Part shown: positions 42,621 to 60,396 of the stretch, piece by piece
Layout: every line of letters begins with the position of its first letter
How positions within the stretch are numbered: position 1 is the first letter of the stretch
DNA from: Pseudomonadota bacterium
GTDB taxonomy: Bacteria; Pseudomonadota; Alphaproteobacteria; Micropepsales; Micropepsaceae
NCBI GenBank assembly: GCA_016201105.1
Contig: JACQDN010000032.1
Span: 1 to 64,000 of the forward strand
Reading direction: 5' to 3'
DNA length: 64,000 nt
The notes under the pieces: model-generated
What the model was told of the DNA's origin: nothing
Database searches by the model: none
Seen by the model: the letters and a program-made list of their open reading frames with translations, nothing else
Translations under genes and position numbers: made by a program

Positions 42621-42819
42621 GGGTTTCTCCTGGTTGGGTTCCAGGAGCCGGCGCGCGGAGGAACGGCTTCGCAAAAGCCAATGGCTTTGCTGGCGCTCAA
42701 CAGCTTTGCAGACAAACGACATGGCTCGGCGAACCCCGCGCGTGACGACTCCAACACTGTCGTCACGGCGGTCACCCCGCAGCCCACGGCACACCCCGGC
42801 CGAAAGCAGGACGACGGCG

Positions 42820-42985
42820 CGAAGCAGGTCTCCTGACTCCCGGTTCTTCGCTTTCGCCCGCCTTCCCAAGGTTTTGATGCCTCAGTGGCGTTGTGGACGA
42901 TCGCTCGCCGGTCACAGTTGCGGGGGCAGCCGCGGTATCTCACCGCGTTCCCTTGAATCCCTTGCGGGAACCTCGCGCGCGCCCA
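42820..42985 (-). promoter_or_regulatory. Cobalamin riboswitch
   Basis: The minus strand shows the B12 box GGAGTCAGGAGACCTGC (42824-42840), GCCACTG, GGGAAGGC and the conserved core GCGGCTGCCCCCGCAACTGT. It lies about 200 nt upstream of the btuB start; the intervening 42621-42819 probably holds the expression platform. B12 binding should lower btuB expression. Confidence 0.93.
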
Positions 42986-43573
42986 AACGCTAATGTGAAG
43001 GCGGCGGTGCGGTCAACGCGTAGAGAGCCGGCAGGGATTCTCACTTGCGCTGCACAATGGGAAAAAGATTGGAAATTCAACGCGTCAGGCACTTTGTGGC
43101 ACCAGCGTCACGTTGCCGGATCAATCTTGCGCCCGCCCCCAATGTCCGCCGAACGGTTGATCGATGGCGACGCAGCCGGTCATGGGCGCAATTTTGCCAC
43201 CATGAAAATTTAGGCTTCAGGCAGCGAAAACATGAGTATGGAACGATTCGCCGCAGAGCTTGCCGGTCACCGGGATGGGCAAAATCTGTGTGCAATTCCT
43301 CCGCGCTGCGACGCCATGTCGGAACGCGGGGTGGATATGCAGAATTACCGAAAAATCAGGGTTTCCCGGCGTTGCGGGAGCGAAATTTTGATCCGTCGCT
43401 CGTCAATGACGGATTGTTGAGGCACATGATGAGCTTAGTTGTGTTGACAAATTCTCGATCTCGACGGCGTTTACCATTTGCGACGCTAGACCGCGCGGGG
43501 AACCGTGATTACGATGTATAAAAATATCGCATACCGGTCGCCGCAGTCGCGGACGAGCGGAGGGGGATACGGG
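42986..43573. other. Intergenic region between riboswitch and tonB leader
   Basis: I see no convincing gene here. TTGACA at 43444-43449 could be a -35 element, but no good -10 follows at 17 nt. TATAAA at 43517 is AT-rich. Frames of 60-70 codons are present without family resemblance. Confidence 0.5.
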
Positions 43574-57362: not shown

Positions 57363-57770
57363 CTAGGCGGGGAAGGGAATCGCGCCCGGTACGGGAGACG
57401 ATGAGGCTGGTTCCTGCGCGTCGGCCGTGGCTGCCCAGCGAAGTATCTCCAGATTCCCCCGGGCATCTTCGACAAGCGCGGTGCAGCTTTCAACCCAGTC
57501 GCCGTCGTTGAGGTAGAGAACGCCGTTGATGGTTCGCATCTGAGCGTGATGAATATGGCCGCACACGACGCCGTCGAGACCGCCAAGATCTTCTCGGGAG
57601 CGGACCTGATCGGCCACGGTCTCCTCGAAGCGGCAGATGTGCCACTGCACGGAGCGTTTGCGCGCCGGCTGCTTGGCTTGGTGCCGGGATGTTTCAGCGC
57701 AAGCTCGGAGACGGGCGAAGACGGAGGAAAGGGCAGGTGGTCTTTCAGCGTTCGCCGCATGACAATGTCA
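57363..57770 (-). pseudogene. 3' remnant of UDP-2,3-diacylglucosamine diphosphatase-like metallophosphoesterase
   Basis: The last 85 codons encode LGGLDGVVCGHIHHAQMRT and LYLNDGDWVESCTALVEDA, which match the C-terminal half of COG2908-type phosphoesterases with the GHIHH metal motif. Upstream the frame runs into a stop at 57768-57770 after a stretch without similarity, and the N-terminal metal motifs (D-x-H, GNHD) are absent from all three frames. The gene is thus truncated or decayed. Confidence 0.75.
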
Positions 57771-58081
57771 GGCCGCTCAAACTCGGACCCGGTGACGTCG
57801 GCCATTCGAACGCTCCCCGCCTCGCGTCTGCTTGCGGACGCGCGCGAATCACACCTGCATTTGGGTGCCTCTGCCTCACGCAAGGCCGTATCGTTGCAAC
57901 GCCGCGTCGGGACGGTTGCGGTGCAGCAAATTTTTTGTGAATCAGGTTGTTTGGCGTGGAATATTTTGCACTGCACAACGACTATGCGCCTTGCGCAGGA
58001 TGTAGGCAGAAAGTCGATTAACTTACTGGCAAATCAGAGTTTTTAGGCAAGAATTGGAATTGTAAAATTTCACGAATACGC
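57771..58081. other. Gap before the small RNA
   Basis: No gene is supported. The region becomes AT-richer from 57930 (57950-58070), unlike the flanking DNA, and may be remnant DNA upstream of the broken phosphoesterase plus the upstream part of the small-RNA promoter. Confidence 0.4.
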
Positions 58082-58110
58082 TTGCTCAGCCGATTTTCGG
58101 GACCTATATT
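58082..58110 (+). promoter_or_regulatory. Promoter of the small RNA
   Basis: TTGCTC (58082-58087) and TATATT (58105-58110) are separated by exactly 17 nt. The predicted start is near 58117. Confidence 0.6.
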
Positions 58111-58116
58111 GTTGCA

Positions 58117-58207
58117 ACGCGGCATTGCGAGCTTGCTCGTGATTTCGCGGCCCTTCCTGGGCGTTTCCTCCCTGAACTTGGCCGCTCCTCCGGGAGCGGC
58201 CTTTTTT
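58117..58207 (+). ncRNA. Candidate trans-acting small RNA with anti-Shine-Dalgarno motif
   Basis: About 90 nt lie between a good promoter and a strong terminator. The predicted fold is a 5' stem with CUUG loop (ATTGCGAG/CTCGTGAT), a short stem GCCC-TTCCT-GGGC, an open stretch GTTTCCTCCCTGAACTT, and the terminator stem GGCCGCTCC-TCCG-GGAGCGGCC with TTTTTT. The exposed UUCCUCCC would pair with ribosome sites, as in Hfq-dependent AbcR and other alphaproteobacterial sRNAs. No reading frame explains it. Confidence 0.6.
58180..58207 (+). terminator. Rho-independent terminator of the small RNA
   Basis: A 9-bp perfect stem with UCCG tetraloop is followed by six T (58202-58207). No protein gene precedes it. 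Confidence 0.93.
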
Positions 58208-58232
58208 CTCGATGGAACCCAAAAATCAAAAC

Positions 58233-58371
58233 CGTCATCCCGGCCAAGCGCCTGCAGGGCGCGCGCGCCGGGACCCATGAACACGGTGCGGAAGGTTCGA
58301 GGAGGCAGCTGAACACCATGCTTATGGGTCCCGGCACGCGCGTTGCTGCGCAACGCTTGGCCGGGATGACG
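58233..58371. repeat. Dispersed palindromic repeat, family D
   Basis: CGTCATCCCGGCCAAGCG on the left and CGCTTGGCCGGGATGACG on the right are exact inverse copies, with inner arms around CCGGGACCCAT/ATGGGTCCCGG. Confidence 0.8.
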
Positions 58372-58758: not shown

Positions 58759-58921
58759 TTTGCGTGCTTCGGGGCTCCCCCGGATCAAGTCCGGGGTCGC
58801 ACCTCAGCATGACGAGAGTGAGTTCATTCCGACCGAGATGCTTGCTACTTGTAGTGCACCGCTCGCGTCATGCTGAGGTGCGTTGCGTAGCAACGCCCCG
58901 AAGCACGCAGAGAAGCACGCA
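58759..58921. repeat. Dispersed palindromic repeat, family C copy 2
   Basis: The block GCTCCCCCGGATCAAGTCCG and its surroundings are identical to copy 1 at 35051-35145. Inverted arms TGCTTCGGGGC and GCCCCGAAGCACGC lie at the ends, and CACCTCAGCATGACG pairs with CGTCATGCTGAGGTG. Confidence 0.8.
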
Positions 58922-58924
58922 ACC

Positions 58925-59833
58925 TTATTCCGCCGCCAGCGCGCTTGGCCGCTGACCGCCCAGCAGCCCCACATCGATCTTGACCAGATCGCGCAAGGCA
59001 TCGGCGATGCGCAGTTTCACGTCGTGAAAGCGCATCGAGGGCAGAATGCGGTCTTCGTCGAGATAAAGTCCGCGATTGATTTCGATCTGCAGCGCATGCG
59101 CCCCGCGCGCCGGCCTGCCGTGCAAAAGCGTGGTGTAGCCGCCGGCATAAGGCACGTTGCGCACCACCGTGAAAGCGCGCGCTTCGAAGGCGCGTTCGGC
59201 GCGCCGCATCAAGGCGTGTCCCGCCGAAACGCCGTAGCGGTCGCCAATCACGATGTCCGGCGCCGCCGCCGCCGACGGCATGGAGTGGCAATCGACCGCC
59301 ACCGCCACGCCGAATTTCGCGCGCGTTTCTTCCATCAGCGCGTTCAGCGCCGCGTGATAGGGCCGATAGAGCGTGGAAAGCCGTTCCTCGGCTTCGGCGA
59401 TGGAAAGCTTGCCCTGATAGATTTCCGCGCCGTCGCGCACGATGCGCGGGATGACGCCCAATCCGGCCGTCACGCGCGGGCTGGCGCTGTCGATCGCGTG
59501 CGGCAGCACGCCTTCGAACATGCCGGCGTCGAGTTCGGCGGGCGAGCGGTTGGCATCGAGATAGGCGCGGGGGAAGTTCGCCGCGATCAGCGGCGCGCCG
59601 AGCTCGGCGACGCTCGCGAACAACTCGTCCACGAACGCGTCTTCGGAACGGCGCAGATTGATGGGATTGAGCCGGCTTTTGGCGACGAAGCTCGCCGGAT
59701 AAAGCCGCCCGGAATGCGGCGAGGCGAATACGAAGGGAACGCTCTGGCGCGCGGGTCTGAGGATCTCGAACGGGTGCTCTCTGAGGCTGGCAAGCAGCGT
59801 ATCGTGGGGCGCGGCGGATCTGGCTGTGTTCAT
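58925..59833 (-). CDS. N-formylglutamate amidohydrolase
   Basis: The 302-residue protein of the FGase family (HutG type) hydrolyses N-formylglutamate to formate and glutamate at the end of one histidine-degradation route. Motifs are VFASPHSGRLYPASF, DANRSPAELD, VDCHSMPS and LQIEINRGLYLDE. Start 59833 follows GCGGAAG. No other hut genes lie nearby. Confidence 0.9.
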   Translation of the reverse strand: MNTARSAAPHDTLLASLREHPFEILRPARQSVPFVFASPHSGRLYPASFVAKSRLNPINLRRSEDAFVDELFASVAELGAPLIAANFPRAYLDANRSPAELDAGMFEGVLPHAIDSASPRVTAGLGVIPRIVRDGAEIYQGKLSIAEAEERLSTLYRPYHAALNALMEETRAKFGVAVAVDCHSMPSAAAAPDIVIGDRYGVSAGHALMRRAERAFEARAFTVVRNVPYAGGYTTLLHGRPARGAHALQIEINRGLYLDEDRILPSMRFHDVKLRIADALRDLVKIDVGLLGGQRPSALAAE

Positions 59834-60036: not shown

Positions 60037-60396
60037 ATGGCACATATCCTTTTGGCGGAAGACGATGAATCGCTGCGGAAGTTCCTCGCCGCGGCGCTGG
60101 CCAAGGCCGGCCACGACGTCACTGATTTCGGCGACGGCAGCGAAGCCTTCGAGTGCCTGAAGGGCTTTCGCTTCGATCTTCTGCTCACCGATATCGTGAT
60201 GCCCGGCATGGACGGTATCGAACTCGCCAAGCGCGCCGCCGAGATGAACGCGGCGCTGAAGATCATGTTCATCACCGGCTTTGCCGCCGTGGCGTTGCAT
60301 CCCTCCTCCAACGCCCCCAAGCAGGCCAAAGTCCTCTCCAAGCCCTTCCACCTGCGCGACATCGTCAACGAAGTCGAACGCATGATCGCGGCCTGA
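60037..60396 (+). CDS. cpdR: Cell-cycle response regulator CpdR
   Basis: CpdR is a single receiver domain that in its unphosphorylated form primes ClpXP to degrade cell-cycle proteins; ChpT phosphorylates it. The 119-residue protein has D9/D10, phosphoacceptor D52 in LLTDIVMPGMDGIELAK, T80 and K102. It ends in Ala-Ala, which could itself be a ClpXP signal. The CtrA-type site upstream fits the known circuit. Confidence 0.92.
   Translation: MAHILLAEDDESLRKFLAAALAKAGHDVTDFGDGSEAFECLKGFRFDLLLTDIVMPGMDGIELAKRAAEMNAALKIMFITGFAAVALHPSSNAPKQAKVLSKPFHLRDIVNEVERMIAA

Follow-up and report, generated by a model that had tools for sequence, protein, structure and literature searches.

The element at positions 58082–58207 of the window, which is the whole 64,000-nt stretch of DNA analysed, carries a small RNA (sRNA) that is a member of the already described alphaproteobacterial αr8/MmgR family. 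The explanation favoured for the locus as a whole, that a single αr8 sRNA would act by seed pairing with Hfq and would be repressed by PhaR until PHB granules form, is regarded as likely. The question of an unassigned sRNA is closed in this way, the family, the mechanism and the usual neighbour all being already known, and the addition made by the analysis is a testable PhaR wiring of αr8.

Table 1. Features at and around the αr8 sRNA, in window coordinates.
Feature	Position	Strand	Evidence or remark
Predicted upstream PhaR site GACGGTTGCGGTGCAGCAAAT	57911–57931	.	Third-best match of the whole window
Predicted upstream PhaR site ATATTTTGCACTGCACAACGA	57961–57981	.	Best match of the whole window
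Promoter: −35 TTGCTC (58082–58087), 17-nt spacer, −10 TATATT (58105–58110)	58082–58110	+	Sequence; 32/34 orthologues
Predicted PhaR operator TATTGTTGCAACGCGGCATTG across −10/+1	58107–58127	.	Second-best match of the window
αr8 (mmgR/suhB, RF00519) sRNA	58117–58207	+	Inferred transcript of ~91 nt; Rfam match, alignment of 31 orthologues
5' stem with CUUG loop (58132–58135)	58118–58149	+	Fold; compensatory changes; mostly outside the Rfam model
Short hairpin GCCC-UUCCU-GGGC, stem invariant	58150–58162	+	Fold, alignment; within the RF00519 consensus
10-mer seed UUUCCUCCCU, unpaired	58164–58173	+	Complementary to Shine-Dalgarno sequences
Rho-independent terminator, 9-bp stem and U6	58180–58207	+	Fold, terminator scan, alignment
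N-formylglutamate amidohydrolase gene (FGase, PF05013)	58925–59830	−	E = 5.5e-72; convergent with the sRNA

Architecture and family of the sRNA

The whole window was searched against 4227 Rfam families, and a match to RF00519 (suhB; described as mmgR; αr8 family) was found at 58143–58216, spanning the full model (positions 1–77 of 77) and scoring 63.7 bits where the cut-off is 41. The E value of 8.4e-11 excludes a chance origin of the sRNA elements and, where the original prediction had seen no assignable family, RF00519 fits well and is the only Rfam family above its gathering score at the locus. Other marks of αr8 were also present, namely a single-stranded UUUCCUCCCU downstream of a weak hairpin, a Rho-independent terminator and an adjoining FGase gene, separated from the terminator by about 0.7 kb that hold an unnamed frame of 91 codons.

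AbcR1 and AbcR2 (αr15), sRNAs of Alphaproteobacteria that depend on Hfq, expose anti-Shine-Dalgarno motifs, and an Hfq-dependent, AbcR-like RNA had been proposed here; the trans-acting build and the exposed anti-Shine-Dalgarno stretch of that proposal stand, but the RNA belongs to αr8 and not to AbcR, which is another family. The covariance-model search that had been recommended found RF00519, and no AbcR/αr15-type model occurred among the Rfam matches at E up to 5 when the short sRNA stretch alone was searched a second time with permissive filters, so that membership of AbcR, with which the element shares its general build (stems, exposed CU-rich stretch and terminator), is rejected as refuted, the gene neighbour and the 10-mer both being of αr8 type. 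SorX and SorY (RF02784 and RF02651) have the CCUCCCU and terminator region in common with the window sRNA, with scores of 23.5 and 19.5 bits, respectively, far under their cut-offs of 46.6 and 111.

The window's own genome holds one RF00519 copy, and matches above the cut-off were found in 43 of the 61 genomes searched, both within the genus and in further families of the class. Weaker second αr8-like matches (28–36 bits) were observed in several congeners (G026, G028, G029, G034 and others) and none in the own genome. Exact copies of a 36-nt core were found in 40 contigs of named genomes, including Rhizomicrobium electricum DSM 21034 (Micropepsaceae, Micropepsales), and the organism of the window is a relative of Rhizomicrobium.

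Downstream of TATATT, the order of the parts is ACGCGG-CAUUGCGAG-CUUG-CUCGUGAUUUCGCG, GCCC-UUCCU-GGGC, G, UUUCCUCCCU, GAACUU and then the terminator, GGCCGCUCC-UCCG-GGAGCGGCC-UUUUUU; the start of the RNA was inferred from the promoter, to within 1–2 nt. All three stems are present in the predicted fold of the + strand, which folds better than 200 of 200 dinucleotide shuffles (z = −3.63). The seed is unpaired in the centroid and in the MFE structure, save for its last base in the latter, and the terminator scan gave a stem at 58180–58201 of 9 bp, 8 of them G-C, followed by six T. Because the sequence, the fold and the terminator scan have them in place, all the elements described in the original prediction are real, that is, the promoter with 17-nt spacing, the 5' stem with its CUUG loop, the open anti-Shine-Dalgarno stretch and the perfect terminator. 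The short hairpin, the FGase neighbour and the predicted operator at the promoter were absent from it.

The promoter matches the consensus at 8 of 12 positions only, which accounts for its absence from the promoter scan list, and taken alone by consensus it is not significant. It becomes convincing because the same layout, TTG..., exactly 17 nt and then CATATT, TATATT or a close variant, recurs in all 32 parsed orthologues, the parser having demanded the 17-nt spacing and 2 of the 34 loci having failed to fit.

Conservation and gene neighbourhood

Conservation of the stems and of CCUCCC in relatives had been set beforehand as a test of the prediction, and both were conserved in the 31 aligned congeneric orthologues. 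UUCCUCCCU is identical in 31 of 31, and the inner terminator pairs and the stem of the short hairpin are invariant. Sequence and length of the 5' stem differ widely among the orthologues, yet 94% of its cells are paired, a value that falls to 26–61% when the partner is slid by one to three columns; this difference is partly expected, since this alignment was also the source of the structure. The compensatory changes looked for in relatives were found at 5 of the 9 consensus pairs of this stem, with 16 cells changed on both sides against a shuffled mean of 3.7 (0 of 500 shuffles reach it), and this count goes beyond what an alignment-derived structure would explain.

Open frames do cross the sRNA, for example from a TTG at 58082 to 58312, so the earlier claim of no reading frame holds only in the sense that none is credible as a gene: the distance from start to core ranges from 34 to 51 nt among the orthologues, and the differences in length do not come in multiples of three, whereas the pairing of the stem is preserved. 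With such indels and a conserved promoter of its own, the element is most improbably a small protein gene, or a 3'-end or terminator fragment of a neighbouring transcript, in place of an independent sRNA gene, despite the frame that runs across it.

In 21 of 21 congeneric genomes that have a strong sRNA match (own genome included), the FGase gene shares the contig with the sRNA at a distance of about 2 kb or less, and the two are convergent in all but one of these. Hfq is encoded in the window's genome. Two inverted-repeat elements (58233–58371 and 58761–58909; arms CGTCATCCCGGCCAAGCG and TGCGTGCTTCGGGGC) lie directly downstream of the sRNA, between it and FGase. On the other side of the sRNA, a remnant of a divergent metallophosphoesterase gene was recognised at 57399–57641 (−), covering residues 207–283 of about 296; the gene is complete in most relatives. 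A conserved intergenic block, GCGAATCTTTTGTTGC...GTGAATC, in which two GANTC sites are possibly targets of CcrM methylation, occurs about 210–290 bp upstream of the seed in relatives (e.g., loci L020, L022, L024 and L026) and is mostly lost in the window. Elsewhere in the window, a cobalamin riboswitch (RF00174, 124 bits) at 42806–42990 (−) precedes a TonB-dependent receptor gene, and a serC leader (RF00517) at 1837–1889 (−) precedes a serC-like gene at 686–1837.

Predicted PhaR operators

The PhaR matrix was built from those Sinorhizobium meliloti sites to which Table 3 of PMC12542648 assigns efficient binding; they come from another order than that of the host. The scan of the window was repeated with the mmgR site excluded from the matrix. 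The three top matches among about 63,980 window positions (57961, 58107 and 57911) all lie either before the sRNA start or over it and fall within 220 bp, which was the case for none of 2000 palindromic column-shuffled matrices. A PhaR-like site of at least 11 bits was found within 380 bp around the core in 33 of 34 genus loci, compared with 3 in 87,670 other positions, and in 40 of 40 named-record loci (38 at the start site; Rhizomicrobium electricum included), compared with 8 in 284,438, the two counts not being independent because of the relatedness of the loci and the overlap between the sets. In most of the genus orthologues, too, a site occupies the start-site position. Many congeneric loci also have a second PhaR-like site about 115–150 bp further upstream, with differing flanks. 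A PhaR gene is present in the own genome, as it is in 22 of 22 congeners searched. Phasin genes are present in the own genome, and its phasin promoter exhibits three PhaR-like sites around TTGACA-17-TATAAG (locus L160, 1248–1325, contig C83), one of them right after the −10; one further PhaR-like site lies in the phaR–phaA gap. From the site enrichment, the presence of phaR and the phasin sites, PhaR binding at the sRNA promoter is predicted with good support.

Between the −10 and the stem lies a conserved block, GTTGCA(A/G)CGCGG, which fits the PhaR core YGCRNYGCR. The stem takes in no more than the right part of this block, the right half of the start-site match doubling as the 5' arm of the first stem of the sRNA. 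A part of the start-site conservation thus has another cause, as the CGCGG half pairs within the RNA and the site overlaps the promoter, and the αr8 sRNA could be real and seed-pairing without the TGC-N-GC sites serving as PhaR operators in this lineage, the start-site sequence being conserved for promoter opening or as a stem arm. Such a reading seems unlikely, since GTTGCA between −10 and +1 is conserved though it lies outside the stem, the second sites further upstream recur with differing flanks, the phasin promoter of the own genome bears the same motif, PhaR genes co-occur, and the operator of S. meliloti mmgR was proven by gel shift (PMC12542648).

Another alternative concerns the ownership of the sites at 57911 and 57961, which might serve the divergent metallophosphoesterase gene and leave only the start-site operator to the sRNA. 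In relatives, the upstream sites do sit between the sRNA and that gene, and the assignment is conceivable, if somewhat doubtful; in the window the gene is reduced to the remnant described above, yet 57961 is the best site of the whole window, and the retention of the best site beside a gene remnant leans towards ownership by the sRNA, short of proof. In the reading preferred here, all three sites act on the sRNA. A broader proposal, which we hold to be fairly likely, would make the αr8 sRNA a core PhaR output throughout the Rhizomicrobium-like lineage, with an operator that overlaps the start and whose right half doubles as a stem arm, and with a second site roughly 115–150 bp upstream, and the circuit would be old and shared in Alphaproteobacteria, not a Sinorhizobium feature.

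Proposed action and comparison with known systems

According to the proposed mechanism, a housekeeping-type promoter would give rise to an RNA of about 91 nt that consists of the 5' stem, the short hairpin, the 10-nt seed UUUCCUCCCU and the terminator with its U tail. Judged by homology, the seed, assisted by Hfq, would pair with ribosome binding sites of the GGGAGG(A) type in selected mRNAs, whose expression would fall. The predicted sites suggest that the PHB-sensing repressor PhaR, on the −10/start-site operator and the upstream sites, would keep the RNA off, and that PHB granules would remove PhaR from these sites; the RNA would then come on and trim carbon metabolism and storage functions. 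Tuning of PHB by the sRNA is proposed here because of the predicted operator and the S. meliloti precedent, and the storage state probably switches the sRNA on and off in this lineage too.

Candidate targets were also evaluated. Phasin mRNAs did not pair strongly with the seed (−10.3 and −14.2 kcal/mol) and were rejected as direct targets. TonB-dependent receptors, for which there is a Caulobacter precedent, paired no better than window genes (p = 0.38; six receptors against 19 window genes, with rough start calls) and were likewise rejected. The lack of a signal from both groups leaves the target side unsupported in this organism. The pattern GGGAGGAA...ATG gave 21 matches in comparison with 1 for the reversed pattern, which shows only Shine-Dalgarno usage; its list includes candidates, such as, by eye, a thiolase-like and a carboxylase-like gene, but targets are not separable in it from other genes. 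A regulon drawn from AGGGAGG...ATG (45 matches in the own genome) was rejected because the matches were mostly halves of a dispersed repeat and not ribosome binding sites. This repeat, the palindrome ACCCTCCC-CTTG-AGGGAGGGT, gave 239 pattern matches in the own genome (both strands, up to 2 mismatches); its copies are mostly inverted pairs 100–190 bp apart and REPIN-like, a shorter version is present at window position 60396, and its AGGGAGGG half mimics αr8 seed targets in pattern searches.

The closest functional precedent for the seed is found in SisA–D of Caulobacter crescentus (αr8), which have the identical 10-mer UUUCCUCCCU next to a weak hairpin and a terminator (PMC12559287). By means of this 10-mer and with the aid of Hfq, SisA base-pairs to mRNAs at their ribosome binding region and lowers their expression, an effect that is abolished by a point mutation and brought back by a compensatory mutation, and CrfA of Caulobacter is a sponge RNA that titrates the αr8 family (PMC12559287). 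A single αr8 copy beside the FGase gene is the rule in most species, and Caulobacter sisA has the same neighbour (PMC12559287), as does the window sRNA, although Caulobacter carries four αr8 copies and the window's genome one. Moreover, no common upstream motif was reported for sisA–D (PMC12559287), whereas the window sRNA has a conserved promoter with a PhaR-like site.

In this last respect the window sRNA resembles MmgR of S. meliloti, with which it also has the covariance model, the anti-Shine-Dalgarno core and the terminator in common. MmgR depends on Hfq, has AniA (PhaR) as its repressor and keeps PHB granules in check (PMC7143759, PMC12542648). It measures 77 nt, compared with the ~91 nt inferred for the window RNA, which is longer because of its 5' stem. 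A PhaR (AniA) site lies in the promoter region of mmgR, at about −33 to −13 (PMC12542648, PMC7143759), and in the window such a site is predicted across −10/+1, with further sites upstream. While PhaR repression of mmgR was thus already known in S. meliloti, what is added here is the conservation of a predicted operator at the start site. The conservation of this putative operator in a third order suggests that the coupling of the sRNA to PHB is either ancestral or was gained more than once.
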